From Methanosarcina acetivorans C2A (GTDB lineage Archaea > Halobacteriota > Methanosarcinia > Methanosarcinales > Methanosarcinaceae), in NCBI RefSeq assembly GCF_000007345.1, contig NC_003552.1, positions 2,728,001 to 2,792,000 of the forward strand: 64,000 bases of DNA. Reading direction: 5' to 3'. The translations under genes were made by a program, and so were the position numbers. Numbering within the stretch: position 1 is the stretch's first letter; each line of letters opens with the position of its first letter. Below, piece after piece: positions 6,846 through 22,191 of this stretch. The notes under the pieces are model-generated. The model saw only the letters and a list, made by a program, of their open reading frames with translations, was not told the origin of the DNA and did not search any database.

Positions 6846-6865
6846 TTTCATGCCTACTACTTTTT

Positions 6866-8029
6866 ATGAATGATTTAGACAGATTCAGAGAAAAATTTGA
6901 AAATGAGCGTGATGAATACCACCCGGATAATTACCGATTGCTGCAAAGACATTTCCGCAAAATTGCCAACAATGCAAAGTTAAGTGACCGGACGCGAGAA
7001 AACCACTATATCACGCTTACACGGTTTGGTAAGTGGTGCAAGAAGCCATTCGGAGAGCTCACAGAGGATGATATTCTAGACTATTGCGAGTATCTTGCAA
7101 ATTCCAAAAGAATAGTAAAAGGGAAACAGGTAAAATACAATGCATCAACCCTTTATTATTACAAATCAGGACTTAAAAGACTGCTTAAAGACATCAAGCC
7201 AGAACTATGCAAAAGTCTTGAAATAAAGACCGTAAGCAAGATTAAAGCTCCTTCTGATATGTTGACAGAGGAAGAGATCGAAAAGCTTCTTGACGCTTGC
7301 CTCAATGCCCGTGATCGTGCCCTTATTTCTACGGCTTATGAGAGTGGGGCAAGACGAAAAGAACTATTAAGCGTGAAAATCCGGCATGTGACCTTTGATC
7401 AAAATGGAGCTGTCCTTTTTATCCCTGACAGTAAGACCTTTGAACGTAGGGTACGCCTGGTATTCTCAAGTTCATACCTCAGGGCATGGCTGGACGTGCA
7501 CCCAAGAAAAAACGATCAGGATGCACCAGTTTTCTGCTCTCTGAGGTCACCATTTAATGTTATATCTCACATGGGAATAGTCGACCAACTAAAGGATCTT
7601 GAGAAACGATCCGGGATTAAAAAACATCTTACAATGCACCTGTTTAGGCACTCAGCAGCCACAAAAATGGCAAAACACCTCACAGAGCAACAGATGAAAA
7701 TAGCACTTGGTTGGCAGCCTAATAGTGGTATGGCGAGCGTGTACGTACATTTGTCAGGTAAGGATATTGATAATGCAATTCTTAAGATGAATGGAATCGA
7801 CACGGAAGAGGAAGACACCAACAATAAATTGAAGGTAACAAAATGTCCGAGATGCCGGGAAATACAAGACTCAAAAGCCTCTTTTTGTTTTAAATGTGGG
7901 CTTCCACTTAATAAAGAGTTTTCCGAGAATATTGATTCTGATTTCCAACAAGTCACAAAAAATATTATAGATTTTAATGATCCTGATGTTAAGGCACAAT
8001 TATTAGAGTTTTTAACTAAAAATAAATAG
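6866..8029 (+). CDS. Tyrosine recombinase (integrase) with C-terminal zinc ribbon
   Basis: A 387-residue XerC/D-like site-specific recombinase. Residues 20-115 form a SAM-like core-binding domain; 130-310 form the catalytic domain. Visible catalytic residues: Arg163 (ESGARRKELL), Lys190 (DSKTFERR), His258-x-x-Arg261 (HLFRHSAAT), Trp283 (GWQP), Tyr293 (SVYVHLSG). A zinc ribbon follows (Cys327, Cys330, Cys341, Cys344), an arrangement typical of archaeal integrases of mobile elements. No RBS is seen, but a TATA element lies about 26 bases upstream. The last 99 bases of the gene have an inverted, 22/32-residue-identical copy at 21957-22055, at the other end of the island. This supports a role in the element's integration or rearrangement. 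Confidence 0.9.
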   Translation: MNDLDRFREKFENERDEYHPDNYRLLQRHFRKIANNAKLSDRTRENHYITLTRFGKWCKKPFGELTEDDILDYCEYLANSKRIVKGKQVKYNASTLYYYKSGLKRLLKDIKPELCKSLEIKTVSKIKAPSDMLTEEEIEKLLDACLNARDRALISTAYESGARRKELLSVKIRHVTFDQNGAVLFIPDSKTFERRVRLVFSSSYLRAWLDVHPRKNDQDAPVFCSLRSPFNVISHMGIVDQLKDLEKRSGIKKHLTMHLFRHSAATKMAKHLTEQQMKIALGWQPNSGMASVYVHLSGKDIDNAILKMNGIDTEEEDTNNKLKVTKCPRCREIQDSKASFCFKCGLPLNKEFSENIDSDFQQVTKNIIDFNDPDVKAQLLEFLTKNK

Positions 8030-8148
8030 TTTTAGAAATATAGAAAGCTTAAGGAAGAAAGCAAATAGCAAAAATAAAAAAAGAAAAACGGCTCGCGACG
8101 GCAAACCCTGGTACTTATAATCAAAGTAAGACGAAAAGGAAGCCGACA

Positions 8149-8180
8149 ACGATTTGATAATAACAAATCGTCTTTAATTT
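8149..8180 (+). terminator. Stem-loop followed by T-rich tract
   Basis: Perfect 8-bp stem ACGATTTG / CAAATCGT (8149-8156 and 8164-8171) with a 7-base loop, then CTTTAATTTT. It may end integrase transcription, or be part of an attachment region. Confidence 0.4.
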
Positions 8181-8352
8181 TGGCAATATTCATATGATAT
8201 ATGAAGAAATCAACATCAAGAGGATTTGTATTTTGCTATTTATAAAATCAATATCGGGTGAGACAGTATATCAAAAACAAACTTTATTTTTTTCTAACAA
8301 AAAAATCACTATCAAATGACATTATAGTAAGAAACTACATCAAAAATAGCAT

Positions 8353-8450
8353 GTTATAGAAATGTTATCAGATATCGAAAATGAAAACGGAATAAATCAG
8401 TAACAAATCAAAAAAACAAAACTATAACATTTCTATAACATTTCATAGAC
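8353..8450. promoter_or_regulatory. Operator-like inverted and direct repeats before the RHH gene
   Basis: A 16-bp sequence (GTTATAGAAATGTTAT, 8353-8368) recurs perfectly inverted at 8424-8439. The right copy is part of two direct 11-bp repeats CTATAACATTT (8422 and 8433). The 11-bp spacing puts the copies on one face of the helix, as known for RHH repressor operators. The RHH-like gene starts 62 bases downstream. Confidence 0.5.
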
Positions 8451-8511
8451 TAAAAACCAATAGCTGTTAACCTTCCGGAAAGAATCCGGAAAAATACGGG
8501 AGTTACCGGAA

Positions 8512-8826
8512 ATGTCAACTGATATTGAAGAAGAAAAAAGATTAGATGTAAGAACATCTCCTGAGATGTACGATATCATCAAAGGCACCGGAAAGAGCAT
8601 TAATACAGCAGTAAATGACGCTCTTAACATTGTTTATGGTAAAAAAACGATTACAGGAAACATTCCTATAGATTTAGATATTCCTATAGATATATACGAA
8701 AAAATGGAAAGGAAATTCACCAGTGTAGAAGAAGCCGCACCACTTTTAGTGGAACTAACATACTTAGATCTCCGACTTTCAGAAACCCGTCAGAAACTAA
8801 AAAAGTTACAAATAAATAAGAATTAA
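8512..8826 (+). CDS. Small ribbon-helix-helix-like protein
   Basis: A 104-residue charged protein. Residues 9-44 (RLDVRTSPEMYDIIKG then SINTAVNDALNIVYG) fit a ribbon-helix-helix fold: one beta strand followed by two short helices with a conserved Asn/Thr-Ala-hydrophobic second helix. The C-terminal 50 residues are helical and Lys-rich with heptad-like spacing, possibly for oligomerisation. RHH proteins of mobile elements usually repress their own operon or act in partition or antitoxin roles. The repeated operator-like sequence just upstream fits autoregulation. There is no obvious toxin partner next to it. Family assignment is by pattern only. Confidence 0.6.
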   Translation: MSTDIEEEKRLDVRTSPEMYDIIKGTGKSINTAVNDALNIVYGKKTITGNIPIDLDIPIDIYEKMERKFTSVEEAAPLLVELTYLDLRLSETRQKLKKLQINKN

Positions 8827-8875
8827 GCAACGGTAGACCTCATACTCACCTCTCATTTTTTGTATTTTTTATTAT

Positions 8876-9225
8876 CCAGGGCATCCTTTCCCAGGGAGAA
8901 ATTCTTCCTTGCAGCTGCAGGCCAGGACCAAGACTTTCTTCCAGGACCAGGACTTCCTTCCAAGGCAACCTTTCCCAGGGAGAAATTCTTCCTTGCAGCT
9001 GCAGGCCAAGGCCCGGACTTTCCTGGCGCCATGATCCTGCAGGTCTGGATCCAGAGGAAGGCCTTCCATCAGGGAGCTGCAGCAATTTCCCTGCAGGCCA
9101 AGACCCGGACTTTCCCGAGCCCCATGGTCCTGCAGGTTCTGGAGCATTATTTCCCGGAAAATAGCCTTTCAAAAATTCCCTTAAAAAACACTATCAATAA
9201 GCACTCTCAAAACATGCCTATGTTT
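8876..9225 (+). repeat. GC-rich island repeat, copy A
   Basis: Mosaic of short modules, including GGGAGAAATTCTTCCTTGCA (8899 and 8980), CAGCTGCAGGCC, and a palindrome-like TTTCCCGGAAAATAG at its right end. The same modules recur at 11330-11690 in the same orientation, and inverted at 16372-16500 and 17113-17330. ORFs crossing it are read as chance frames of the GC-rich repeat. Confidence 0.8.
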
Positions 9226-9286
9226 TTCTCACAATTTTTTTACATTCACCCTGCAATACTTAAAATATATCAATGTATTAAAGAGC

Positions 9287-9439
9287 ATGATTAATTTTGT
9301 TTCAAGTTCTGGTTCTAGTTCATCTCATGCTACCAGAATACTCCTTGGAGAATTCACTATTATAATATTAATTATTATAATAGTGATTCTCTTAATGGTA
9401 ATGATCTTTATTTTCTACTATACCAAATATAAAAAATGA
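9287..9439 (+). CDS. Small single-TM protein (50 aa)
   Basis: ATG 9287 to TGA 9437-9439 encodes a Ser-rich N-terminus (about 17 residues), one strongly hydrophobic segment (residues 24-42, Ile/Leu/Val/Met only) and a Lys/Tyr tail KYKK. This is a classical single-pass small membrane protein. The RBS is weak (AAAG, 4 bases upstream), and the segment lies between a repeat and a MITE, so it could be a chance frame. Small TM proteins are common in archaeal plasmids and viruses. Confidence 0.4.
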   Translation: MINFVSSSGSSSSHATRILLGEFTIIILIIIIVILLMVMIFIFYYTKYKK

Positions 9440-9467
9440 CATTGTTTCCATTGGACTTTTGACTCAA

Positions 9468-9597
9468 GAGCTAGTCCCAAAACTCAAAAATTACCTCTTT
9501 AGATCCTAGTTTTGAAATAATTAGCCGGGATACCAATTTGGAAATAGTTCTGAAACTCTTACGAATTGGGAAATAAAATTGGTTTTGGGATAAGCTC
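9468..9597. mobile_element. 130-bp MITE, copy 1
   Basis: Non-coding 130-bp unit with terminal inverted repeats: GAGCTAGTCCCAAAACT at the left and GGTTTTGGGATAAGCTC at the right. Reverse-complementing it aligns along its full length, without length change, with 15010-15139. I see no clear target duplication. Confidence 0.65.
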
Positions 9598-9872
9598 TAT
9601 AATTAAAAAAAAACTTGAAATAATTCGTAATTTTCTTTTATCTTCTCCGGGCTCCGCCCCCCAACCTTTATACGCGTAAAACCTGTACGCGTGGCAGGCA
9701 GATAGCCGCGAACTGCGCGGCATGCCAGAGCGTCCGGGTTCGGCTTTCCGCAGGTTGGGACCCCCCTTTCCGGGAAGCCCCTTCCTCAGAGTGAAACAAA
9801 AGAGAGCTGTAAAATTTTTCAGGAAAATTTTCTTCGGATAATCCATCTTTGAACATATTGAGAATGAATTTA
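9598..9872. other. Intergenic with GC-rich patch
   Basis: Bases 9650-9800 are GC-rich (CTCCGGGCTCCGCCCCCC and similar), unlike the AT-rich surroundings, and contain ORFs only by chance. No gene or RNA is recognised. Confidence 0.3.
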
Positions 9873-10901
9873 TTATACAGGAAAAATAGCTTTTAGAATT
9901 CTGGGATATTTACAGAACATTATTTCAGAAATATTTTCCACTTTAATGATACTTATATCATCCCTATTAATTGAACATGCTCCATTTTCTGTCAGCACCT
10001 CTATCATGGACCCATGCTTCAAAATTATCCCACAAACACTCATTCCATCTTTTAAATATAAAACAGATATCTGATAACGAGCACCATAGTATCCGGCACA
10101 ATAAGCGAAATTTGTAAAGATTAAGAAAGCAAGTACAAAAGAGACTAAAATTACTTCAAAGGAGTTACTAAGTTTACATAAATAGTACATGATAAAGATC
10201 ATCACAAAAGGAATGAAACGCAATCGAACGAAACTCCTAAATAGGTCTATAAACCATTTGAATCGTTCGCGTAGATTTACTGTTCCATATTTATCAAAAT
10301 TAGTGTATGACTTGCGTCTATCTTTGAGACAATCCGCACCATATTGAAGAAGAACTAACAAACAAAGTTCAACAAGTAACAACAGAGATATTATAAACCA
10401 TTGCATATAAATTTCAAACAATATCAAATAAGGTTCTAACATACAATTTATAACAGATAATATGCCTGCAAAATAATGAGACAGATGTATTATATACCAT
10501 GGTATATATATTTCAAAAAAAGAGTGTGAAGTAAGAATTAAAACAACATATTTAAAAAAAGCAAATATCAAATAAGGTTCTAACATACAATTTATAACAG
10601 ATAATATGCCTGCAAAATAATGAGACAGATATATTATATACCATGATATATATATTTCAAAAAAAGAGTGTGAAGTAAGAATTAAAACAATATATTTAAA
10701 AAAAGCAAATATCAAATAAGGTTCTAACATACAATTTATAATAAATAATATGCCTGCAAAGTAATGCGAAGCTGCATTATATTCTCTAACTTGTGTTTCT
10801 CCCCAACGCACTCCAAAGAAATAAATTATAGCACTTATGAGAACAACTACAATTGGAATAAGTCCAATTATATCAGAATATTTAGTTAAATCATTCTCCA
10901 T
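9873..10901 (-). CDS. Multi-TM protein with internal 48-residue duplications
   Basis: A 342-residue membrane protein with about eight to ten hydrophobic segments. Its N-terminal half carries two complete and one partial copies of a 48-residue unit (starting SHYFAGILFIINCMLEPYLI), almost identical at DNA level, so the duplication is recent. The C-terminal third has two further TM segments (around residues 225-265) and a soluble tail of about 80 residues without a known motif. No family is recognised. It stands alone on the minus strand between a MITE and a GC-rich repeat, inside the island. Confidence 0.65.
   Translation of the reverse strand: MENDLTKYSDIIGLIPIVVVLISAIIYFFGVRWGETQVREYNAASHYFAGILFIINCMLEPYLIFAFFKYIVLILTSHSFFEIYISWYIIYLSHYFAGILSVINCMLEPYLIFAFFKYVVLILTSHSFFEIYIPWYIIHLSHYFAGILSVINCMLEPYLILFEIYMQWFIISLLLLVELCLLVLLQYGADCLKDRRKSYTNFDKYGTVNLRERFKWFIDLFRSFVRLRFIPFVMIFIMYYLCKLSNSFEVILVSFVLAFLIFTNFAYCAGYYGARYQISVLYLKDGMSVCGIILKHGSMIEVLTENGACSINRDDISIIKVENISEIMFCKYPRILKAIFPV
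10422..10782. repeat. 144-bp tandem repeat inside the membrane-protein gene
   Basis: Units begin at 10422, 10566 and 10710 (TATCAAATAAGG); two are complete, the third is about half length. Spacing is exactly 144 bp, which keeps the reading frame (48 codons). Near-identity points to recent slippage or unequal recombination. Confidence 0.85.
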
Positions 10902-11157
10902 CTTACTACAAAATGTACTTAAGATATATGAAGGTCATTATTATAATCTATATATCATTAAATATTTTTCATATTTATTCACGATCTATTCATCCTTTAT
11001 TACCAAAAGAAGGCCTTGTTCTAGATCCTCGGCACAGATGTGCTTCAGGACCTGAACAGCTGCACATAAAAACAGTATCGGTAATAGCCCAGAGGGAAAG
11101 AAAAATTTCCGAACATTTTCCGAACATTTTCCTTTTCACAAAAATTTCAATCCAAAA

Positions 11158-11690
11158 GGAACTTCCATTTCCGACGAAGCTTCCATTTCCGACGAAGCAT
11201 CCATTTCCGAAAGGGCATTTCCCCTTCCTCATTCCCCTTTCCGAAAGGGCATTTCCCCTTCCTCTTTTCCCTTTCCACTTTCCTTTGCCTTCCAAGCATT
11301 CCTTTGCTTTCCAAGCATTCCTTTCCTAGATCTGGAGGAAGGCCTTCCTAGCCCGGGGAGAAATTCTTCCTTGCAGCTGCAGGCCAGGAATTTCCAACAG
11401 AGCTTCCATTCCAACGGCACTTAGACTGCCAGGACTAGGACTTTCCCGGGCTCCAGTATCCTGCAGGCCAGGCCCAGGATATTTCCCGGAAAATAGTCTG
11501 CCAAAAAAACTTCCTGGCCCGGGGAGAAATTCTTCCTTGCAGCTGCAGTCCAGAACCTCAAGGTCTGGATCCGGAGGAAGGCCTTCCACCCAGCTGCAGC
11601 AATCATCCTGCAGGCCAGGACTCGGACTTTCCCGGGCGCCAGGACCTTGCAGATTCTGGAACATTATTTCCCGGGAAATAGTTCAGGGCT
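11158..11690 (+). repeat. GC-rich island repeat, copy B
   Basis: The left part (11158-11330) is a run of CATTTCCGA / CTTCC-type modules, followed by GAGAAATTCTTCCTTGCAGC (11358 and 11523), and a palindrome GAACATTATTTCCCGGGAAA at the right end. About 350 bp (11160-11550) recur as a near-perfect inverted copy at 17115-17470. Confidence 0.8.
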
Positions 11691-12627
11691 TAATGCCCAA
11701 CTGAGGAATACATTTTAAATAAGCTTCTCTTAGTTCATCCTTTTCTATGTGGTCGTACACGTCTATTGCTTCGCCTCTCGAATCTCCCCTTAATTCTTGA
11801 ATGAATGTCCTTTCCATACCTGAACGTCTAAGCCACGTAGTGAACCAGTGCCGGCAGCAATGAGGGGTAAAATGTTCTTCAAGTCTCCCATCAGGGTTAT
11901 GAAGTCCTATAGAGGAAGCGGCAGACGTGACTACATTGTATACTAAATTTCTTTGTATACGGTGACCGTTTTGCTTGCCTATGAATAATGCTTTTTCTTT
12001 GTCATGCCTCTTGTTAAGGTACTCTTCCATGAAGACTTTAGTTTCAGAGTCAAAGAATACTATACGATTTGACCTTTTAGCTGTCTTCTTGAGTCTTACC
12101 GTACACTTTTCTAAGTCTATGTCAGCTCGATCAAGGGTAATTAATTCATTTCTTCTGATACCAGTTTTCGCTAAAAAGATTATCAATGCTTGATACATGG
12201 GGTAACCTGGTACTTTGACAAGCTTTGCCATGTCTTCAATGGTAATCAATTGCCTTGTTTCCGGTGTATGATATTTTTTGTAGCTTCTTAGATAGCGTTT
12301 TCTGAACGTGGGAATGTTATTTCTCTCGATTATGTGCTTGAATTCAAGGAAGTCAAAAAAGGTACTTAGTGAAGCAAAGTAATTGTTACAGGTTGCTAGT
12401 GTGTATTGTCTTTCATCTCTTATGTGAACAAGGAACCCTTCAAGCTCTGTAAATCCTGCATTCACTCCACACATTTGAAGGAAAAACTTAGCATGACTTA
12501 CGTATCCTTCTATTGTTCTTTTAGAGTAGCCTCTCCCGATACAATCGGAAGTGAATAAACTTATAAGTCTTTCATCATCCGGTGGCTCATAGATACTAGT
12601 TAGCTTAATAGCTGTTATTTCACCCAT
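11683..12627 (-). CDS. Tyrosine recombinase (XerC/D-like), second integrase
   Basis: A 314-residue recombinase, unrelated in detail to the one at 6866 and without a zinc ribbon. Core-binding domain about residues 18-110; catalytic domain 125-305. Catalytic residues visible: Arg158 (TGIRRNEL), a Lys in KKTAKRSNR (181-185), His256-x-x-Arg259 (PHCCRHWFTTW) and Tyr291 (DVYDHIEKDE). Such enzymes serve as integrases, as plasmid dimer resolvases, or in DNA inversion. It overlaps the end of repeat copy B and is preceded by an inverted repeat (12656-12690) near its promoter. A 13+6+13 palindrome at 16712 in the same island could be its target site (inference). Confidence 0.9.
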   Translation of the reverse strand: MGEITAIKLTSIYEPPDDERLISLFTSDCIGRGYSKRTIEGYVSHAKFFLQMCGVNAGFTELEGFLVHIRDERQYTLATCNNYFASLSTFFDFLEFKHIIERNNIPTFRKRYLRSYKKYHTPETRQLITIEDMAKLVKVPGYPMYQALIIFLAKTGIRRNELITLDRADIDLEKCTVRLKKTAKRSNRIVFFDSETKVFMEEYLNKRHDKEKALFIGKQNGHRIQRNLVYNVVTSAASSIGLHNPDGRLEEHFTPHCCRHWFTTWLRRSGMERTFIQELRGDSRGEAIDVYDHIEKDELREAYLKCIPQLGIKP

Positions 12628-12655
12628 GAATCAATAAAAGACGTTTGTAAATAAA

Positions 12656-12690
12656 TACTTTGTGTATGATGGTACTTCAAACACAAAGTA
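12656..12690. promoter_or_regulatory. Inverted repeat upstream of second integrase
   Basis: TACTTTGTGT (12656-12665) is repeated inverted as ACACAAAGTA (12681-12690) with a 15-base spacer, 29 bases before the integrase ATG at 12627. It is suitable as a binding site for an autoregulator or for the recombinase. Confidence 0.4.
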
Positions 12691-12842
12691 TAAGTACATT
12701 TACTTTCTTTTAATATATGCTGGTAACAGCAAAAAAGCGCCAAAGTAGAATGACGTCGATTAGAAGAGTAAGTTGGACGTGGGCCTTGAAAAAGGTAGAA
12801 GAGAGCTTACTCTTAATCTCAGTTAAAAACGGAATTGGTATT

Positions 12843-12866
12843 TGAGGGTTATTCCAGTAATCCTCA
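12843..12866 (-). terminator. Stem-loop downstream of the zinc-ribbon gene
   Basis: Imperfect inverted repeat TGAGGGTTATTCC / AGTAATCCTCA just 3' of the minus-strand gene ending at 12876. A possible terminator; no T-run on the minus strand side is obvious. Confidence 0.3.
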
Positions 12867-12875
12867 TAAAAAACG

Positions 12876-13076
12876 TTATTCTTCGATAAATTCTATGTAA
12901 TTACAGCATTCACAGTATAGTGCTTTTTTAAATAGTTTCGTCTTTCTGGTTTCTCGATCGGTTGTTTTCTTCCATAGGTTAATGAGGTAACATTCTCCAC
13001 ATTGAGGGCATTTTTTAAGTTTACTTTTGCCCCTTCCGGTTTGTGGAAGCCTTTTATTAGTGACACGCTTAGGCAT
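12876..13076 (-). CDS. Small zinc-ribbon protein (66 aa)
   Basis: A short, very basic protein with N-terminal Arg/Lys-rich tail, then CPQCG (residues 23-27) and CECC near residue 55, a CxxC...CxxC arrangement typical of a single zinc ribbon. Such proteins often bind nucleic acids; a specific role is not visible. It lies between the second integrase and the OLD nuclease, all on the minus strand, with about 250 bp on each side, so not a tight operon. Confidence 0.55.
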   Translation of the reverse strand: MPKRVTNKRLPQTGRGKSKLKKCPQCGECYLINLWKKTTDRETRKTKLFKKALYCECCNYIEFIEE

Positions 13077-13324
13077 AATGGAATATCGGTGTATTAAGTA
13101 TTAATGGTTTCTAACTTGTGCAATAATAATTATTTGGGGTCGCTTGAGCTATATGCCTTCGGTTGCAAGCTGTTAGAAGGCATTTCAGGCGATTCTTCAA
13201 TTATACATCCATCACTCCCATTGATGAGAGCCAACCACCAGGAAGCCAGCCGGTTCAAGCTTCAAAAAAGTCGAGAAGACTGCTTTCTACTTTGCCCCCT
13301 AGTGACAGCTTCGCTGATATTGGG

Positions 13325-14788
13325 TCAACAGCTGAGATTTACTTGGATTCTCTCTAATATCTCTTTTAACCCATCGCTGTAATCCTTATCTATCTCCTTT
13401 CTGTGTATGTCAAAAATTCCCTTTGTTATACGATTTTGACAGTCTTTGCAATAATTCTCATCTTTTAGAAAATTACATTTACTTCGAAGTTCGCATTCTT
13501 TATCTCGGATATCATTTGCATTCAGCAACTCAAAATAATACTGTTGGAATCTTTTCTCTACATCATCTTTTTCGGCTTTTTTATTCCCATCATATAAACA
13601 ACAAATTCTTTCAAAACCCAATGAACTTAAGATTGCCAAAATATATTTGATATTTCCAGCTCCACCAGCACCAAAACCGAAAAAATTAATTTTACCCTTA
13701 ATATCCAACAATCGTAAGGCTTTCTTTAAAAGCACCACATCTTCCTGACCTTCTACAATTAACACTCCATCGCCTAGAAAAAAACATGATCTAGCATCGT
13801 AACCAAAGACGTGTGGAAAATTTATGTTTTCAATTGAATTTTCCAAGAATTTTTTAGTATCGTCGTCTAAGTCCAATTTATGTATTTTTGAAGTGTTCCC
13901 TTGTTTTGCTACTCTACAAAGAGTTCCTCCATTCAGAATAGATTCAATAGAAACCATTTCAGGGGAATGTGTAGCGTACAAAACTTGTTTGTCCTTAGTG
14001 TGTTTAAGAATTACTTCTAAGAGATTCCTCTGTAGCTCTGGATGTAAAGACAATTCAGGTTCATCGATGACAAGAAGTTTACCCGGCAAGGAATTTAATA
14101 AAGCTTCTACTAAAAAAAGAAGACTGACAAGCCCTTCACCTAATCCATCTGAGTCGTGATCGACGTTTTGTTGGCAAATTTTAACATAATAATCTCCAGC
14201 ATTGCTTAAGTCAATTGTCCAGCTTAATCTATATCCTAGGACCTTCTCCAAAAGATCATCAAACGTTCCTTTCAGTTCTGGGTCTTTAACCAAATCAAAC
14301 AATCCGTTATCTTCAGCATCAATTGGTTGCCCTCTAGGTTTAAGCATAATTGATTTGGATAGTGCCCGAAGCCTGTCACCACCATATGACGCTTTATTAG
14401 AATATGGGTTAAAGAATCTCCTGGACGGCAATACGATAATTGGTAAATCGTCAATTCTAAAAGTTCTTTCTGCTTCAGATCCACCAGCAGAGTGAGTTTT
14501 TAAAATATATGTATGAAAATATTTTCCGTCTATTTTCTTTTTATCACATGTCTGTAGTGTTATCTCAACTCTACTTCCGACTACTTTGTTCCTTTGCCCT
14601 TCCGAAAAGCTGATATCACTCCTTGAAGAAACCGCTTTAAAAGCCTCAATAATCGTTGACTTCCCTCCGTTATTAGGACCAACTATTACTGTAAGTCCAG
14701 ATCCTTTCTTTCCATCAGGTATAGATAGCTTCAACTCTTGTTCTTCTGCAAAACCGCGAAACCCTTTAATTTTAATACTTGAAATCAT
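13325..14788 (-). CDS. OLD-family ATPase with TOPRIM nuclease domain
   Basis: A 487-residue protein. The N-terminal ABC/SMC-like ATPase shows Walker A GPNNGGKST (37-45), signature GLGEGLVSL (215-223), Walker B LLVIDEP (238-244) and H-loop His274 (ATHSPEM). The TOPRIM domain follows with the acidic VEGQED (345-350), GFGAGGAGN (371-379) and CLYDGNKK (397-404). OLD proteins are DNA nucleases, several of which defend against phages (for example P2 Old, GajA of Gabija). No GajB-type helicase or other partner is adjacent, so it looks like a stand-alone class 1 OLD. A Cys-rich stretch around residues 430-455 (CELRSKC...CKDC) could bind zinc and is unusual. Likely defence cargo of the island (inference). 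Confidence 0.85.
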   Translation of the reverse strand: MISSIKIKGFRGFAEEQELKLSIPDGKKGSGLTVIVGPNNGGKSTIIEAFKAVSSRSDISFSEGQRNKVVGSRVEITLQTCDKKKIDGKYFHTYILKTHSAGGSEAERTFRIDDLPIIVLPSRRFFNPYSNKASYGGDRLRALSKSIMLKPRGQPIDAEDNGLFDLVKDPELKGTFDDLLEKVLGYRLSWTIDLSNAGDYYVKICQQNVDHDSDGLGEGLVSLLFLVEALLNSLPGKLLVIDEPELSLHPELQRNLLEVILKHTKDKQVLYATHSPEMVSIESILNGGTLCRVAKQGNTSKIHKLDLDDDTKKFLENSIENINFPHVFGYDARSCFFLGDGVLIVEGQEDVVLLKKALRLLDIKGKINFFGFGAGGAGNIKYILAILSSLGFERICCLYDGNKKAEKDDVEKRFQQYYFELLNANDIRDKECELRSKCNFLKDENYCKDCQNRITKGIFDIHRKEIDKDYSDGLKEILERIQVNLSC

Positions 14789-15009: not shown

Positions 15010-15139
15010 GAGCTCATCCCAAAACCTATTTTATCCCTATATCGGTCAAAATTTCAGAATTATTTTCATTATCTGTAACTCGATTGACTATTTCAGATTC
15101 AAGATTCTGAGAGCCGATTTTGAGTTTTGGGATAAGCTC
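15010..15139. mobile_element. 130-bp MITE, copy 2 (inverted relative to copy 1)
   Basis: Terminal inverted repeats GAGCTCATCCCAAAACC and GTTTTGGGATAAGCTC; exactly 130 bp, the same as the copy at 9468-9597. It aligns with the reverse complement of that copy, including an internal TTTCAGAA block. Non-coding. Confidence 0.65.
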
Positions 15140-15379
15140 ATAATGAAAATTGCCAATTTCAGGCTGATTTTTCCACAATTGCCTATGTGTTTGTTTTCTC
15201 GATTATTCCTCATCATATAGGAATATGCTTGTTTCCTCCGATAACCCAGGGTAATTGTAAAAAAACATAAAGAAAAACATAGGCCGTTTTTTATTAAGTC
15301 TCTTGATGTTGATTTTGCATTCAAGCTTTTATGAGATTATGATACTAGCACATTTTATTAACTAGTCACTCACGAAATA

Positions 15380-15387
15380 TTTATATA
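15380..15387 (+). promoter_or_regulatory. TATA box of the repeat-protein gene
   Basis: TTTATATA with purine-rich bases (CGAAA) upstream as a BRE-like element; about 100 bases before ATG 15489, implying a leader of roughly 80 bases. Confidence 0.45.
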
Positions 15388-15488
15388 GTAAAGGGTAATA
15401 CTGGATATTATAGTAGTACTATGTTGCTAACCATTCTAAAAAGCAAAAAACTTCAATTGAGTCGAACTTTCAAAGGAAGGTAGACATA

Positions 15489-16101
15489 ATGACACCAGCA
15501 AAAGATATGCAGAAAATGGCAGAAATGATGAAACCAGTAAAAGATATGCAGAAAATGGCAGAAATAATGGCACCAGCAATTGAGTCGCAGAAGAAAATAG
15601 CAGAAATAATGGCACCAGTAATAGAGTCGCAGAAGAGAATGGCAAATATTGTTGCTGACATGACGGAACCAGCAATTGAGTCGCAGAAGAAAATAGCAGA
15701 AATAATGGCACCAGTAATAGAGTCGCAGAAGAGAATGGCAGATATTGTTGCTGACATGACGGAACCAGCAATTGAGTCGCAGAAGAAAATAGCAGAAATA
15801 ATGGCACCAGTAAAAGATATGCAGAAAATGGCAGAAATGATGACACCAGTAAAAGATATGCAGAAAATAGCAGAAATAATGGCACCAGCAATTGAGTCGC
15901 AGAAGAAAATAGCAGAAATAATGGCACCAGTAATAGAGTCGCAGAAGAGAATGGCAGATATTGTTGCTGACATGACGGAACCAGCAATTGAGTCGCAGAA
16001 GAAAATAGCAGAAATAATGGCACCAGCAATTGAGTCGCAGAAGAAAATAGCAGAAATAATGGCACCAGTAATAGAGTCGCAGAAGAGAATGGCAGATATG
16101 G
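15489..16101 (+). repeat. Coding tandem repeat array (39-60 bp units)
   Basis: In-frame repeats built on ATTGAGTCGCAGAAGAAAAT and AAAGATATGCAGAAAATGGC modules. Whole blocks of about 102 bp recur (15577, 15679, 15880), pointing to block duplication. Open frames on the opposite strand are a by-product. Confidence 0.85.
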
Positions 16102-16352
16102 CGTATAGTCTGCCTATAGAGGACATAGCGATTTCAACAAATTTTAAAAGAATTAGAGCTAGTGCACCATACAGGAAATCTATTACTTTAACAGACATGG
16201 ACTTAGAAAGAGCGACAAAACTTGAAAAGATATTTGATACAGTGTACCGTAGTGAAGCCCCGTTCAATTTCTCTAAAACTATATCAAAAGCCTTAGAGAT
16301 AGCATTCTTTTTGCAACTGACACCAATGCAGCAGTCAGGATCAGAACAGTAG
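15489..16352 (+). CDS. Short-repeat helical protein with RHH-like C-terminus
   Basis: A strong RBS (AAGGAAGGT) precedes ATG 15489. Of 287 residues, the first 205 are 14 consecutive near-identical units of 13-20 residues: four PVKDMQKMAEIM-type, about six PAIESQKKIAEIM-type, and four PVIESQKRMADI-type, three of these extended by VADMTE. The pattern A..M.K.AEIM predicts a continuous amphipathic helix or coiled coil. Residues 215-275 (RKSITLTDMDLERATKLEK then FNFSKTISKALEIAFFL) look like an RHH or similar beta-helix-helix DNA-binding fold. DNA units are nearly identical too, so copy number probably changes by recombination. No known family is recognised. In a plasmid-like element it might bridge or segregate DNA (speculation). 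Confidence 0.75.
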   Translation: MTPAKDMQKMAEMMKPVKDMQKMAEIMAPAIESQKKIAEIMAPVIESQKRMANIVADMTEPAIESQKKIAEIMAPVIESQKRMADIVADMTEPAIESQKKIAEIMAPVKDMQKMAEMMTPVKDMQKIAEIMAPAIESQKKIAEIMAPVIESQKRMADIVADMTEPAIESQKKIAEIMAPAIESQKKIAEIMAPVIESQKRMADMAYSLPIEDIAISTNFKRIRASAPYRKSITLTDMDLERATKLEKIFDTVYRSEAPFNFSKTISKALEIAFFLQLTPMQQSGSEQ

Positions 16353-16371
16353 CTATAAGATTCAAAATTTA

Positions 16372-16500
16372 AAATGCTTATTGATTGTGTTTTTGAGGGA
16401 CTTTTTGAAAGGCTATTTTCTGGGAAATAATGTTCTGAAGGATCCTGGCGCCCAGGAAAGTCATGGTTCTGGCCTGCAGATGCAAGGAAGATCTTCCCGA
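16372..16500 (-). repeat. GC-rich island repeat, copy C (inverted)
   Basis: Reverse complement of the right end of copy A: AATGCTTATTGATTGTGTTT, GAAAGGCTATTTTCTGGGAA and a GGATCCTGGCGCCCAGGAAA module match 9130-9215 when inverted. Confidence 0.7.
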
Positions 16501-16711
16501 ATGAAAGTATTCTGACTAAGATTTATATAGTTGCCGTGACTTTGAATATAACGAGCTATCTTTATTAGAACAGTTTCCTTATAGAGATCGAAAAACTTCC
16601 AAATTTGTAAGGAAATTTATATATCCAAGGATAACTAACCAATGTCTATATCACAAAGAAAAAACAATCAGGAGGTCTAAGGTCTAGAAAGTAGATACAG
16701 AATTTCATTGA

Positions 16712-16743
16712 CAACTGTCAAGATTTGCCGATCTTGACAGTTG
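16712..16743. other. 13+6+13 perfect palindrome, possible recombination core or RNA hairpin
   Basis: CAACTGTCAAGAT (16712-16724), spacer TTGCCG, ATCTTGACAGTTG (16731-16743): perfect arms of 13 bp around 6 bases. This geometry equals a tyrosine-recombinase core site. It could equally be an RNA hairpin; a TATA-like ATTTATATAT lies at 16615. Confidence 0.45.
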
Positions 16744-17112
16744 AAGAAATAGCCTTTAGTTACATTGAACATAATTGACTTGACATTACAGTATTCTGAG
16801 TATTTGTTTCTCCCCTATATTAGTCTTTGTATTTTGAGGAGTTAACGCTATCAAACACGTCAATAGTTCATCTTTTCTAGAGGTGTCTCTTTACATGTAT
16901 CGAAGTAGCGAACGCTTTAAAAATCTTCGGAGTAGAGATGAATTATTCGTTAATATTTACTTTATCTGGGAAGATTCCTGAAGCACGAATCCTGAAAATA
17001 ATTCTCTTGACTTTCTTGACTCTGCTACTCAAGATAATTTATTCTATCGGGATTAATGTGCATATGTAAAAAAAGTAGCATGCTAGTCACATAAGAAAAA
17101 GTTTTAAAATAA

Positions 17113-17580
17113 ACTGCAGCTGCAAGGAAGAATTTCTCCCCGGGCCAGGAAGTTTTTTTGGCAGACTATTTTCCGGGAAATATCCTGGGCTTGGCCTGCA
17201 GGATACTGGCGCCCGGGAAAGTCCTGGGCCTGGCAGTCTAAGTGCCGTTGAAATGGAAGCTCCGTTGGAAATTCCTGGCCTGCAACTGCAAGGAAGAATT
17301 TCTCCCCGGGCTAGGAAGGCCTTCCTCCAGATCTAGGAAAGGAATGCTTGGAAGGCAAAGGAAAGTGGAAAGGGAAATGCCCTTTCGGAATGGGGAAAAA
17401 GGAAGGGGAAATGTCCTTTCGGAAATGGATACTCCGTCGGAAATGGAAGCTTCGTCGGAAGTGGTAGGCACCCTTGCGGAACTCGAAGGCATAGATTCGG
17501 AAGTGGGAAAGGAATGTGGAAGTGAAGCTTCTAGGGAAGGCCTTCCTCCGGATGCAGACCTATCGGTCCTGAGGCCCTGC
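17113..17580 (-). repeat. GC-rich island repeat, copy D (inverted)
   Basis: Inverted copy of copy B: 17115-17470 is the reverse complement of about 11160-11550 with few changes (e.g. CTGCAAGGAAGAATTTCTCC at 17116 and 17286). The ORF 17242-17676 (+) crosses it and is not regarded as a gene. Confidence 0.8.
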
Positions 17581-17587
17581 ACACAAG

Positions 17588-17877
17588 CAAAGTATAACTT
17601 CCTAAAAAACGGTTTTTTGAAAATAGATTTTGTATCTTTTCATTTTGGTAAGGTTAGCAAAAAAACAGCCTATTGATAATGTTTTATAGGTAAGATTACG
17701 GTAAGGTTAAGGTAAGGTTAAGGTGAGGTTAGAAAAATATAACATTCTAAAAAACGGTTTTTTGAAAATAGATTTTGTATCATTTCATATTGGTAAGGTT
17801 ATCAAAAAACCGGCTATTAATACCGTTTTCTAGGTAAGGCAGAGGTAAGGTTAGGCAAGATTTGAGAGAATTTTTTA
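17588..17877 (+). repeat. 145-bp direct duplication at the origin edge
   Basis: 17588-17710 and 17733-17857 share TAAAAAACGGTTTTTTGAAA, ATAGATTTTGTATC, TTCAT.TTGGTAAGGTTA and the following GGCTATT block at an offset of 145 bp, with scattered substitutions. Each copy ends in GGTAAG-type iterons. Confidence 0.65.
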
Positions 17878-17954
17878 TGCAACGTATCTTAACCTTACCA
17901 TTACCTTACCTTAATCTTACCTTAACCTTACCTTAACCTTACCTTAACCTTACC
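17689..17954. other. Iteron array 1 of candidate origin (GGTAAGGTTAA, 11-bp period)
   Basis: Four units GGTAAGGTTA start at 17689, 17700, 17711 and 17722, exactly 11 bp apart. Six inverted units TTAACCTTACC fill 17889-17954, again exactly 11 bp apart. Single units also occur at 17647 and 17793 in the flanking duplication. The mirrored, helically phased arrangement is that of initiator-binding iterons. Confidence 0.65.
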
Positions 17955-18232
17955 ATAAACAATAGCAGTAGAAAATAGCAACAAATAAAGAAAAAAAATG
18001 GAAAAAAACATAATTTCCAGAGGGTTCTATCTCTAATAAAGATCCATCAAGACCTTTGCAGCTGCGCTCCTGGAAGCTCTCCTGCAGGATCCAGAAAACA
18101 GAACGGAAGTATTCACCCACATTTGAAAAAGATTAATATTGAAAAATTAGAGTTTAATACTTTAACTGTTTAAATTGATTATAAAAGATTGTTTTTTTAA
18201 TCTCATAATATTGACACCCCCTATACAAAAAA

Positions 18233-18500
18233 GTGGAAAAAACTAGGAAAAACTAGGAAAAAGCGTATACTGATAGTGTTTTCGAAGTGGAAAATAGGTG
18301 GAAAATAGGTGGAAATCGGTGGAAAAAACTGCGTTTTAGTGGATGAGAAAAAATATATAGAATATATAAAAAAATAAAAAATATAAATTAATATTTTATC
18401 TATCTATTTTTCTCATCCACCATTTTCCACCTATTTTCCACTTTTTTCCACCAATTTTCCACCTATTTCCTGTAATTTTCCACCAATTTCCACCAAAAAC
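18233..18500. other. Candidate replication origin: mirrored GTGGAAA iterons around AT core
   Basis: GTGG cores start at 18287, 18298, 18309, 18319 and 18339 (unit GTGGAAAATAG), with an outlier at 18233. Their inverted counterparts CCAC start at 18417, 18427, 18438, 18448, 18459, 18480 and 18490. Spacings of 10-11 or 20-21 bp keep them on one helix face. The inner pair GTGGATGAGAAAAA / TTTTTCTCATCCAC is a perfect 14-bp inverted repeat. Between them, 18349-18410 is almost pure A/T, fitting a duplex-unwinding element. The Rep gene ends 165 bp away. Confidence 0.75.
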
Positions 18501-18658
18501 GCTATCGGATAATTTTTTGCTTGTTTTTTTAAAAAAAAATAATTTCAAAAACATCTTTAATATCTGATTATTTTTTAAAAGAAATTTATATAATCAATAC
18601 ATATTTATTTGATATATTTTAAAACAGAAATAACTATAATTTCAGAAAAAAAATATCC

Positions 18659-20899
18659 TTATTTAGATCTCTGCTTTATTTTTGAGAACATTTTTACGAT
18701 ATCCTGGAATCCGTAATGAAATGAACAGTCTTTCCCATCATCAGTTTTGATAAATTCTTTTGCAACTTCTTCAGATGTTCTCGTCACGTTATTTAAATCG
18801 GGCCGTTCTACAATGAAACCCTCACAAATTCTTTTTAAATTTACTCTTGAGTTCTCTTTGGATCCCTTTAGTTCTTCTATGTCTTCACATTCTTGTTTAT
18901 TAAGATCTTCTTCTATCTCTATATCTTTCTTTTTTATTTTCAATACATCGTATATTTTTTCAAATTTAATATAATATCCTCTCGCGGTCTGCCCGTTTAC
19001 AGTCGTACAGTATTTCTTGGTTTTTCCATCAGTACGCTTTGTTAATATGCCTTCTTTATCCCATTCTTTGATAGCACGGTCAAAATTCTGATTTATACTT
19101 CCTAAATATTTCCGTAGGGCTCCTTCATCATATATTACTCCTGCAGCAGTAACCCATCCCTTTATCTCAATTCCTTTAGCTGTCGTCGTGCTATACGGAT
19201 CTAGTTTGTTACTGTATTCAAAGGACCGCCTATTCCTCACATGCCAGGAATAAACAGCGTCCAGAGCTCGGATGTAATATGGGATGGTTTCGTCATTAAT
19301 GACAGTTGAAATATAATATTTTTTGCAGATCTCAAAAGCATTTTTATGAGGTATTTGGTACTTCATTAAAACATTCTCTAATATTTGACCTCCGAGTGTT
19401 AGAGCCGCGTAGTAATTTTTTTTGCGAGCTGCGAAAGGTGTAGATGCGACTTCAAATTTATCCCTTATCACGTTGTACCGGTTTTTCAGAATTTTCTGGT
19501 ATGAAATTATCACTTCTATTATATCATCCAAGAAAAACCCATAATGACTTCTAACAGTTTCTTCAATTTCGCGGATGCGATTTTCGTCTATTTTGGGTAC
19601 CCCATCGAATATTTCCAGAATACGGACCATTTCACCCGTAGCAGAACTATCTGACTGCGTTAACGGATACTCCCCTGTTGAAATAGTCACATTTCGCCAG
19701 GTAACTACATTAGCTGCACGCACTTCATTATTCTTAATCGTACCTCGGTTTCGACTTACTCCGTTTACCAGGTTGTACACATTTTGCCTGAACTGGGGGT
19801 TTCTGGTAGTCTCGTCAAACGCCAAAACAACATCTGTGTTCTGTATTGCTGTTTGTTCGATCCCGATATCTGTGCTGTTTGCACTTCTACATAGTAATTC
19901 CGGATTCCCTATTAATGAAAGTGCTATTTTTGTCGTTAGTGTTTTTGATCCGGAGCTTTCGAAGTATTGGTGTAGTATGAATGATGGGGCGTCAATGATT
20001 TTCAAAATCATAGCTGCAACCACTGAATAGCATTTTATGCGGGTTATATCATAATCCAACATTGGAGCTATTATTTTTATCCACTCATCTCTATTTCCTT
20101 TCTGAGTATACATTTCCCCCATAACTTCATCAATTGGTATAATATCTCTCTTCCCATCTGCTGAGTACGAATTATTACCAATAATAAATATTGCACAGTC
20201 TTTCTTCCAACCGGTCCGCAGTGCTGTATATTCCTTTGGCATCCATCTTACATACTTTACCATCTTTTTAAAATATGTTAATAAGTATTTTGAATCATTG
20301 CTATTGATATGTAATCCTAGATTCGCAAGTTTTTTAATATCAGAGGATAGGATATCAGAAGGCAATACCCACTTAGTATTATAGTCGCCTATTACGTTTC
20401 TGTAAGTACATTGATAGAGAAAAGTTTCATCATCTAAATTTACACCTGTTGCAGATATCACAATAGGGGTTTCTGATATCACATCATAATCTTCTATATC
20501 TTTATTATTATTAAGTACCTCAATTCCGTTTTTGGACACCCTGAATGGGTAAAGGTTAAAATCAATGTTGAATACATCTGTTTCCTGTTCGTTTGGAGTA
20601 TTCATTATTTCGTTTATTCTCTGTTCTATAGCTTCTTTTTCATTATCCCATGTGGTAGGAGAATATGTTTCGATGATTTTGAAAACTTCCCATGCTACAA
20701 ATCTATATTTTTTTAAGATCAAAGCTAACTTTTCAAGATCTTGAAGACCCCACGAAGGAGCATACGAAAACAAAGTTCTTAACTCTTCGGACTGGATCAT
20801 AACCTCCACGATTTCAAAATTGAGATTTACGGAGTCTAACTCTGAATTGTATGGAATTTTATTATACCATTCTAACAGCTGCTCGCGTAATGAAGCCAT
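18659..20899 (-). CDS. DUF927-like replication ATPase/helicase
   Basis: A 746-residue protein, the largest of the island. A central ATPase region follows the DUF927 layout: P-loop-like FESSGSKTLTTKIAL (313-327), Walker B-like VVLAFDE (357-363), a conserved NLVNGVSRNRGT (376-387), WRNVTISTGEYPL (401-413) and an arginine-containing GEMVRILEIFDGVP (422-435). DUF927 proteins are D5/primase-associated helicase-like ATPases of plasmids, phages and integrative elements. The C-terminal 200 residues contain a winged-helix-like stretch and an acidic, Lys-rich tail. The ATG follows the stop of the previous ORF by 3 bases, with GGGGTGA as RBS. With the iteron arrays next to its 3' end it is the likely initiator/helicase of this replicon (inference). 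Confidence 0.7.
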   Translation of the reverse strand: MASLREQLLEWYNKIPYNSELDSVNLNFEIVEVMIQSEELRTLFSYAPSWGLQDLEKLALILKKYRFVAWEVFKIIETYSPTTWDNEKEAIEQRINEIMNTPNEQETDVFNIDFNLYPFRVSKNGIEVLNNNKDIEDYDVISETPIVISATGVNLDDETFLYQCTYRNVIGDYNTKWVLPSDILSSDIKKLANLGLHINSNDSKYLLTYFKKMVKYVRWMPKEYTALRTGWKKDCAIFIIGNNSYSADGKRDIIPIDEVMGEMYTQKGNRDEWIKIIAPMLDYDITRIKCYSVVAAMILKIIDAPSFILHQYFESSGSKTLTTKIALSLIGNPELLCRSANSTDIGIEQTAIQNTDVVLAFDETTRNPQFRQNVYNLVNGVSRNRGTIKNNEVRAANVVTWRNVTISTGEYPLTQSDSSATGEMVRILEIFDGVPKIDENRIREIEETVRSHYGFFLDDIIEVIISYQKILKNRYNVIRDKFEVASTPFAARKKNYYAALTLGGQILENVLMKYQIPHKNAFEICKKYYISTVINDETIPYYIRALDAVYSWHVRNRRSFEYSNKLDPYSTTTAKGIEIKGWVTAAGVIYDEGALRKYLGSINQNFDRAIKEWDKEGILTKRTDGKTKKYCTTVNGQTARGYYIKFEKIYDVLKIKKKDIEIEEDLNKQECEDIEELKGSKENSRVNLKRICEGFIVERPDLNNVTRTSEEVAKEFIKTDDGKDCSFHYGFQDIVKMFSKIKQRSK

Positions 20900-20902
20900 T
20901 TT

Positions 20903-21082
20903 TCACCCCTCGAAGCAATCCATATATTCAGCTATATCATAGCCTTTTTTCCAAAAAGAAAGCGTGAACGCAGAAGATAACGTTTTTATCCTTTGATTAC
21001 ATATAGAAAAGTTGGATTTAGGATTCTCTTTGTCCGCTCCCCTATGCCTGCCAGCTTTTAGGGAGCCTCTTTTTTCATTCAA
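20903..21082 (-). CDS. Tiny basic protein of the rep operon (59 aa, TTG start)
   Basis: The frame from TTG 21082 to TGA 20903 is fully open and reads as a basic protein (begins LNEKRGSLKAGRHRG, ends GYDIAEYMDCFEG). The start overlaps the stop of the preceding gene by four bases (TTGA), and its stop precedes the Rep ATG by 3 bases with GGGGTGA as RBS. Tight packing is the main evidence for a real gene; the sequence has no recognised family. The non-ATG start makes it easy to miss. It could regulate or couple Rep translation. Confidence 0.5.
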   Translation of the reverse strand: MNEKRGSLKAGRHRGADKENPKSNFSICNQRIKTLSSAFTLSFWKKGYDIAEYMDCFEG

Positions 21083-21240
21083 GGCGTATCCACCCCAGCG
21101 ACAGTTAAAACAGTAAGTGCAAAAGCCTTTTCTGTGGGGTTTCCAAACTTGGCTTTAAAGTTGATAGCTTCCTTATATTCAGAATAGATTTTTTTGAAAG
21201 CATCAATAGTTTCAGGTTTAAAATTAGAAACTGCCTGCAT
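21079..21240 (-). CDS. Tiny protein of the rep operon (53 aa)
   Basis: ATG 21240 overlaps the TAA of the upstream gene (TAATG), the usual sign of translational coupling. The product (begins MQAVSNFKPETIDAFKK, ends TVAGVDTP) is short, helical, Lys-rich in its first half, with no known family. Its stop overlaps the TTG start of the next ORF. Too short for most gene callers. Confidence 0.55.
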   Translation of the reverse strand: MQAVSNFKPETIDAFKKIYSEYKEAINFKAKFGNPTEKAFALTVLTVAGVDTP

Positions 21241-21650
21241 TACTTACCGCCCCCGCAGACACAAGAGACTTTAAATAAACTCAAACTATCTGGATCTAAT
21301 ACTCTCCGATATTTGCCCCTATAACAATGCAAAATGTATTTTAATATCCCGTCTTCTCTTGCTGATTTTGGGATAAACGTTATTATTATTCGAGAAAGCA
21401 CAAAATATATGTTAAAACCTGATGAATATGCAGGTTTTATAGCATGGCACTTCTCTTTTATAGCTTCTCTCGCTTCTTCTTTTGTATTGGCGTTATTAAG
21501 TATTATTTTTCTCACCCATGTTAGAATAAAAGCGGAAAGCGAGAGTATAAACAAGATTAATGCAGTTGGAATAGGAATGTCTATACCTGTTAAAAAGTGT
21601 ACGAGCAAAAACAAGGCAATTGTTAATGCAATTTTTTTAGATATATTCAT
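21240..21650 (-). CDS. Small two-TM protein of the rep operon
   Basis: A 136-residue protein: two adjacent hydrophobic segments (about residues 7-24 and 29-48), then a basic, helical cytoplasmic part with KEEAREAIKEKC and a hydrophobic stretch at 79-95, ending in a Cys/Gly tail CVCGGGK. An AGGAAGGT RBS precedes the ATG. It is the second gene of the operon, 53 bp after the RHH gene. No family recognised; membrane anchoring of a replicon could be its role, but that is a guess. Confidence 0.6.
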   Translation of the reverse strand: MNISKKIALTIALFLLVHFLTGIDIPIPTALILFILSLSAFILTWVRKIILNNANTKEEAREAIKEKCHAIKPAYSSGFNIYFVLSRIIITFIPKSAREDGILKYILHCYRGKYRRVLDPDSLSLFKVSCVCGGGK

Positions 21651-21703
21651 TTTTTACCTTCCTATATTTTTATTAATCTTCTTTTATTATATTCAAAATT
21701 TCG

Positions 21704-21844
21704 TCATGCATTAAACATTTTCTTTATTTTATCTGCCAAAAACGTGCTTCTTTTAGCTTCGCCTCTGGCTTCATCTACTTTTTCTAAAGTCTCTGGATCT
21801 AAATACAAGCTAACAGCATATTTATTTGCGACTCGACAAGCCAT
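21704..21844 (-). CDS. CopG-like ribbon-helix-helix regulator (46 aa)
   Basis: A minimal RHH protein: beta strand KYAVSLYLDPET (residues 8-19), helix LEKVDEARGEAK, helix RSTFLADKIKKMF. This closely follows CopG/Arc-type repressors that act as dimers on operator DNA. The RBS GAGGTAAG lies 5 bases before ATG 21844. It is the first gene of the minus-strand rep operon, and the promoter region upstream carries four phased direct repeats, so negative autoregulation and copy-number control are likely (inference from the CopG paradigm). Confidence 0.65.
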   Translation of the reverse strand: MACRVANKYAVSLYLDPETLEKVDEARGEAKRSTFLADKIKKMFNA

Positions 21845-21862
21845 TGTCTTACCTCATAGAAT

Positions 21863-21957
21863 TTAATTCGAATTAATCTATTGATACTTTTAAAATTATA
21901 AATAGTTTTTGTGTAATATATATAGCACATATAGTACATGTAGCACATATAACACAT
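21863..21957 (-). promoter_or_regulatory. Rep operon promoter with phased operator repeats
   Basis: On the minus strand: TATA box ATTTATAAT (about 21893-21902), preceded directly by repeats. On the plus strand these read TATAGCACAT, ATAGTACATG, TAGCACATAT, AACACATT at about 10-base steps (21921-21957). A perfect 14-bp palindrome TTAATTCGAATTAA (21863-21876) sits in the leader, between TATA and ATG. These are likely RHH-binding sites. Confidence 0.55.
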
Positions 21958-22055
21958 TACAAAACTTTAGTTAAAAACGATAACAATTGCGCTTTTACGT
22001 TTAGGTCTTTGAAATATATTACCTGTTTAGTGACCTGTTGGAAATCAGAATCAAT
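21957..22055 (-). pseudogene. Inverted fragment: C-terminal 32 codons of an integrase
   Basis: Read on the minus strand from 22055, it encodes IDSDFQQVTKQVIYFKDL... to a stop at 21957. It is the same length (99 bases including stop, no gaps) as the end of the integrase gene at 7931-8029, with 22 of 32 residues identical. The sequence before it does not continue the integrase, so only the tail remains. It marks the right side of the island. Confidence 0.7.
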
Positions 22056-22191
22056 AAAAAAGAGAGCCAAGTACTCAGTGTTAAAGACAATATCCAATTT
22101 TTTAAATCAGTTAACTACTCTCACTTTTCGTATTTTTTTCATAATAATTTATATAGTACATAAATATCCTATATATACTCGTGAATACCTG

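Follow-up and report, generated by a model that had tools for sequence, protein, structure and literature searches.

A probable integrated plasmid-like element of Methanosarcina acetivorans with a predicted replication origin of the kind known from staphylococcal islands

The region analysed is a stretch of 64,000 nucleotides of the Methanosarcina acetivorans C2A genome (contig NC_003552.1, positions 2,728,001 to 2,792,000 of the forward strand), hereafter the window, whose own numbering is used throughout. Positions 6805-22233 very probably constitute a site-specifically integrated, plasmid-like element with a replication origin of the type carried by Staphylococcus aureus pathogenicity islands (SaPIs). 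The island is bounded by a 13-bp direct repeat, CTTTCCCGAAAAG, found at 6805-6817 and 22221-22233 in the same orientation, which has exactly two copies within the window and is single-copy at the uninterrupted junction in relatives (as a variant form in two genomes). Separate searches with the two flanks covered 30 further Methanosarcina genomes, and an empty site was recovered in at least eight of them (G006, G007, G009, G010, G020, G022, G023 and G025), the left flank (ending at 6816-6818) joining the right flank (starting at 22221-22223) directly, in most cases with an overlap of about 13 bp. The repeat and the empty sites together form the footprint of a site-specific integration, and the element is therefore 15,416 bp long. 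An uninterrupted open reading frame (ORF) of 390-411 codons spans the empty site in at least seven of these genomes (L066, L068 and L072 among others); since it lies here in two parts, the element interrupts a conserved gene, whose product is about 390 aa long in relatives and which is cut at about codon 90. Pfam gives no match for this gene. The G+C content is 35.8% within the element, compared to 41.0% to its right. These sequence comparisons establish the integration, its target gene and its ends. An earlier sequence-only reading of the window had placed an integrated replicon at 6866-22060; the island itself stands, while its ends are corrected by the attachment (att) repeat. The features of the junctions are as follows.

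5903-6805, minus strand: 3' part of the host gene, about 300 codons (a whole ORF in relatives)
6805-6817: attL core CTTTCCCGAAAAG, an exact match to 22221-22233
6866-8029, plus strand: Int1, tyrosine recombinase with a C-terminal zinc ribbon (Pfam Phage_integrase, 3e-20)
22221-22233: attR core CTTTCCCGAAAAG, an exact match to 6805-6817
22221-22491, minus strand: 5' part of the host gene, about 90 codons (a whole ORF in relatives)

Int1, which starts 48 bp from attL and is intact, is likely to be the integrase of the element, and its homologues share a locus with a rep gene of the DUF927 family in ten further cases. It does not resemble the suicidal, SSV-type integrases, as the gene is whole and the Phage_integr_3 domain is absent (Pfam). 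The element indeed carries two different tyrosine recombinases, as had been read from the sequence. The second, Int2 (11683-12627, minus strand; Phage_integrase, 6e-22), is XerA-like, matching the NCBIfam model XerA_Arch at 2.6e-45 (below its cut-off); it is 21% identical to Int1 and 59% identical to its counterpart in another island of the same genome, at 5.05 Mb (island 2).

The replicon occupies the right part of the island and comprises the following features.

17688-17731, plus strand: outer iteron array 1, four copies of the 11-bp unit AGGTAAGGTTA
17888-17958, minus strand: outer iteron array 2, inverted, 6.5 copies; similar 11-mers lie 3' of sister rep genes (L041, L037)
18227-18326, plus strand: inner iteron array 1, degenerate GGAAAAACTA units followed by four copies of GTGGAAAATAG
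18327-18415: A+T-rich centre within the inverted repeat TGGATGAGAAAAA/TTTTTCTCATCCA, the likely duplex-unwinding site
18416-18496, minus strand: inner iteron array 2, inverted TTTTCCACC units
18659-20899, minus strand: Rep, a DUF927 AAA+ helicase with a C-terminal HTH_56 (Cch) domain, from Pfam and profile matches
21240-21650, minus strand: 136-aa protein encoded in the rep operon, probably of the membrane (weak DUF1673 match, 0.007)
21704-21844, minus strand: 46-aa CopG-like ribbon-helix-helix (RHH) protein, whose gene heads the rep operon (RHH_1 match with an E of 0.012, which is below the cut-off)
21920-21957: four 9-bp direct repeats upstream of the RHH gene, a candidate operator

Residues 119-396 of Rep match DUF927 in Pfam at 2.9e-92, the P-loop lysine K319 and the acidic pair D362/E363 are conserved, and the HTH_56 (Cch helix-turn-helix) match, at 3.7e-5, falls just below the Pfam cut-off. 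The only solved structures matched by a profile of 12 Methanosarcina Reps are 5dgk (4e-51; PDB title 'Active helicase'), which we take to be the Cch of a staphylococcal cassette chromosome (SCC) element, SCCmec, and 8tch (5.8e-49; 'Pathogenicity island protein'), the SaPI Rep. By these matches Rep belongs to the family of SCC Cch and SaPI Rep, to both of which it is homologous. The likeness to SaPIs is drawn from the PDB profile matches and from the published account (PMC7581432). According to that account the DUF927-bearing Cch is related to the Rep of SaPIbov1, and the SaPI origin consists of iterons just downstream of rep that are bound by the C-terminus of Rep (PMC7581432). The operon runs on the minus strand in the order 46-aa CopG-like ORF, 136-aa protein, Rep; the sequence-only reading of an RHH-led operon with a DUF927-like Rep thus holds for Rep and is probable for its leading gene. 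The RHH protein may regulate rep, and the four 9-bp repeats would suit the role of its operator.

Directly 3' of rep lie two nested pairs of inverted tandem arrays around A+T-rich DNA (17688-17958 and 18227-18496), which bears out the two-tier iteron region described earlier; the centre between the inner arrays reaches 98% A+T over 50 bp. The association of such arrays with rep was examined in 25 archaeal DUF927-rep loci of about 14-20 kb each (413 kb in total), oriented by rep and scanned blindly for short-word arrays facing their reverse complements. Exact 7-mers gave five positive loci out of 25, all with the arrays 3' of rep, and none in 500 shuffled loci; the same scan found no facing arrays at 26-64 kb of the window. 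When one mismatch was allowed, the number of sites lying 3' of rep at a distance of up to 2.5 kb was 9, 12 and 13 at three settings, against 1, 2 and 0, respectively, elsewhere in the 413 kb, with none in threefold shuffles; 12 of the 25 loci were positive at the 13-site setting and 14 of 25 in the union over settings. As the 3' region makes up 15% of the sequence, the probability of this placement by chance is about 2e-11 (13 of 13 sites) or about 1e-8 (at least 12 of 14). In the sites as printed, short arrays face each other across A+T-rich DNA and the iteron differs in most elements. The same arrangement, face-to-face repeats just after a DUF927 rep, recurs in four bacterial replicons picked by protein similarity, namely a Geobacillus and a Eubacterium plasmid and the phages THSA-485A and FP_Epona; the Geobacillus arrays pass the strict automatic criterion and those of FP_Epona the loosest, while the other two were read by eye. 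By analogy with SaPIs, the arrays downstream of rep are predicted to be an origin of the same type.

The three closest Reps (those of the window, of Methanosarcina sp. KYL-1 and of island 2) are 39-68% identical and have iterons alike, of the kind GGTAxGxTTAA, which suggests that the outer pair is probably ancestral and the inner pair specific to the element. Alternatively, the arrays might serve not as the origin but as centromere-like sites for partition, with an RHH protein as their ligand, or one nested pair might be the origin and the other a partition site. The presence of two distinct iteron families would fit such a division, as would the neighbouring gene for a 287-aa protein, which may end in an RHH-like segment (by eye). 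However, the position of the arrays tracks rep also in loci where no relative of the 287-aa gene was found, and a ParA partner is not recognised; we consider partition an unlikely function.

The inner iterons were also considered as boxes for the host Orc1/Cdc6 proteins and rejected, as the two orc1 loci carry other repeats, with only one site resembling an origin recognition box, near 2.48 kb. Separately, nine tandem units of 17-18 bp containing AAACAGAAACAAA, several followed by ATGGAAA, were noted at G000:C1:5748810-5748980, about 2.6 kb before the contig end and beyond the first orc1/cdc6 gene, and may represent a chromosomal origin.

In the life cycle that we propose for an integrated element with a SaPI-type origin, Int1 would recombine the 13-bp site in the conserved host gene and thereby integrate a circular form. 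Following the SaPI and SCC models, the C-terminal helix-turn-helix of Rep would bind the inverted arrays just 3' of rep, and Rep would open the duplex at the A+T-rich centre and be loaded as a pair of opposed hexamers, after which bidirectional replication could proceed with host polymerases. The RHH-led operon and the 9-bp repeats upstream of it may limit Rep expression, and the element may still be able to excise. Several observations weigh against this interpretation. The searches brought up no closely related free plasmid or virus, and in IMG/VR no relatives at all (with degenerate patterns, which are insensitive at such divergence); a primase is not recognisable in the element by Pfam, PHROGs or NCBIfam. 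In 11 of the 25 loci no twin array was seen under the criteria used, which implies either that the layout, though common, is not universal or that the detector misses degenerate arrays. Moreover, the two nested iteron families differ in that only the outer resembles the iterons of sister elements, leaving it uncertain which of them Rep binds.

It is also possible, though we hold it only tentatively, that the island is an old and defective element whose replicon is dead, retained for its OLD nuclease or by chance. A detached integrase tail, miniature inverted-repeat transposable elements (MITEs) and GC-rich repeats have built up in it, and decay is evident in the sister island at 5.05 Mb. Against such a history, Rep, both integrases and the OLD protein are uninterrupted ORFs, the catalytic residues of Rep are kept, the iterons are regular and the att repeats perfect. 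The suggestion of the sequence-only reading that the element is integrated and possibly still replicating is supported by its empty site, 13-bp att repeat, split target gene, intact Rep and recognisable origin. That reading had named the lack of an empty site and of plasmid or viral relatives of Rep as what would contradict it, and the outcome was the opposite, as both exist.

The remainder of the island consists of other genes and of repeats.

8512-8826, plus strand: 104-aa probable DNA-binding regulator, after a conserved leader at 8076-8313
8870-9200: GC-rich, palindrome-rich repeat block a
9468-9601: MITE-like repeat, with an inverted second copy at 15006-15139
9873-10901, minus strand: cargo gene for a 342-aa protein of membrane type, with internal repeats of 144 bp (no Pfam family)
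11162-11681: GC-rich repeat block b, with a 388-bp inverted match to 17113-17467
13325-14788, minus strand: OLD-like ATPase/TOPRIM nuclease (Pfam; PADLOC Old, 2.7e-27)
15489-16352, plus strand: 287-aa protein with a long repetitive helix and a C-terminal segment (low-confidence model)
16375-16500: GC-rich repeat block a', inverted, 80% identical to 9091-9203
17110-17580: GC-rich repeat block b', inverted
21966-22056, minus strand: relic, a second and separate copy of the Int1 3' end (about 31 codons, 74% identical in aa sequence)

The nuclease had already been recognised from the sequence, and the Pfam and PADLOC matches confirm it; it is probably defence cargo. In the 104-aa protein no RHH fold was recognised by Pfam or in a low-confidence single-sequence model (pLDDT 58). 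The leader preceding its gene is 73-76% identical to L037:5887-6125 and L038:6464-6672, is confined to three islands of the M. acetivorans genome, and has copies at 3.47 and 5.05 Mb that precede genes for coiled-coil/transmembrane proteins; as a candidate for a known RNA it was dismissed, having no match in Rfam. Within the 342-aa gene, 10420-10782 holds 2.5 tandem 144-bp repeats that are 95-98% identical, and this near-identity suggests a recent expansion. Units of 39/42 bp, among them a 216-bp block that recurs at about 93%, make up the 287-aa gene (15482-16099), and the length of the gene is therefore probably variable. Its product is modelled, with low confidence, as helices at 3-111 and 120-207; the C-terminal segment looks RHH-like by eye, but Pfam finds no RHH and the single-sequence model is weak.

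The gene content also bears on the idea of a virus satellite, in which a helper archaeal virus would activate and package the element as phages do SaPIs. The class of Rep and origin, the comparable size (15 kb), the layout of integrase, regulator and rep, the lack of recognised capsid or conjugation genes and the probable antiviral nuclease aboard would all agree with this. Yet no packaging or capsid-remodelling gene, as expected of a phage-inducible chromosomal island, was recognised (Pfam, PHROGs), and bacterial plasmids and whole phages use the same replicon class; we regard a satellite as quite improbable. Nor is the island recognisable as a provirus, as it has no capsid, portal or terminase gene (Pfam, PHROGs); a relaxase was likewise not recognised (capsid, terminase and relaxase: Pfam, PHROGs, NCBIfam). 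More speculative still is a combined scheme in which DUF927 Rep and paired inverted iteron arrays form an ancient cross-domain replicon class and the island is a helper-dependent satellite with two nested origins for two replication modes, to which we give little credence.

The GC-rich repeats and MITEs are best read as passengers of the element. The sequence-only reading had taken the repeats as mirrored, present only between 8.8 and 18.1 kb, and as signs of an element that inverts or whose halves arose by inverted duplication, which now appears very improbable. Inverted pairs do exist, at 73-88% identity: 9091-9203/16375-16479 (80%), the MITE pair 9468-9601/15006-15139 (73%), 11162-11549/17113-17467 (88% over 388 bp) and the Int1 tail, 7930-8020/21966-22056 (78%). 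Within the island, however, several of the GC-rich copies stand in direct orientation, and the families are dispersed, the MITE-like repeat having about 27 matches genome-wide and the GC-rich family occurring in at least four other places of the genome (2.03, 2.67, 3.48 and 5.05 Mb) while being nearly absent from other Methanosarcina. An inverted duplication predicts the order a-b-b'-a', whereas a-b-a'-b' is found. Of the genes that face each other across the supposed mirror, those for the 104-aa and 287-aa proteins are not homologous, and the two integrases are only distant relatives. What speaks for inversion is the 388-bp inverted repeat itself and the location of Int2 between its arms, ending 2 bp from one repeat block; inversion of 11.5-17.1 kb between these repeats might occur. 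The Int1-tail copy was rejected as a second att site, being inverted, with the real att elsewhere. As a separate observation, six-base palindromes are enriched in 8870-9200, 11000-11681 and 17110-17580 (z 2.8 to 5.8 against first-order shuffles) and depleted in the 41.7 kb to the right of the element (z -4.4), and palindrome-rich GC-rich repeats mark several islands of the M. acetivorans genome.

The distribution of the DUF927 Rep is patchy: of 238 genomes of the class, 23 carry one, most of them from the same family. M. acetivorans itself has another two DUF927 islands, located at 5.05 and 2.33 Mb. Neither integrated elements nor the SaPI-type replicon are new in themselves. The earlier statement that no archaeal element with such a layout has been described may hold for the element, while the replicon class is known from bacterial SaPI and SCC islands; no paper on an archaeal DUF927 replicon with an origin was found, in a search that covered little of the subscription literature and so does not prove that none exists. 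Taken together, the data suggest that a SaPI/SCC-style start of replication is common to mobile elements of both domains. Methanosarcina gains a candidate replicon with rep and a predicted origin placed to the base, and the element explains why a conserved gene is naturally split in the M. acetivorans model strain. The comparison also offers a rule by which origins may be predicted in archaeal and bacterial elements that lack annotation, the sign being a pair of inverted iteron arrays 3' of a DUF927 rep. Should Rep act like SaPI Rep, archaea would use a type of self-loading helicase initiator that has been studied mainly in staphylococci.

Several known and related systems come close to the element. 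One is island 2 (L037, 5.04-5.06 Mb), which shares Rep (42%), Int2, the leader, GC-rich repeats and related iterons, but is degenerate, the N-terminus of its Rep being split off and a transposase lying between rep and the iterons. The KYL-1 element (L041/L105) is similar in Rep (39%) and has related iterons of 11 bp, which lie 3' of rep at a distance of about 130-240 bp; it differs in having another integrase and a single iteron tier. The Geobacillus plasmid pSJEF4-2-2 likewise has, directly after a DUF927 rep, inverted TGTCACAAC arrays that flank A+T-rich DNA, yet it is a free bacterial plasmid with a CHC2 zinc-finger (primase-type) gene. With the SCCmec Cch (5dgk) the island has in common the DUF927 AAA+ core and the HTH_56 domain; SCC, however, moves by Ccr recombinases and the island presumably by an Int1-type enzyme, and the Cch origin is undefined in PMC7581432. 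In the G007 locus (L043:7787-12737) a gene for a family A DNA polymerase stands between a rep with an NrS-1-like domain and the inverted iterons, an order comparable to that of pattern 2 SCC elements with their polymerase-helicase operon (PMC7581432), and in the G001 locus (L044:7910-11328) a gene of matching length occupies the polymerase position after rep. Like the SaPI replicon of the SaPIbov1 type, the island combines a DUF927-related self-loading helicase with short iterons directly 3' of rep (PMC7581432), from which it differs in its archaeal host, its two nested iteron families and the lack of recognised primase or packaging genes. Finally, it resembles the 'classical' archaeal tyrosine-recombinase elements (PMC8371274) in that the integrase gene remains intact after integration, but its target is the interior of a protein gene and its replicon is of the SaPI/SCC type.

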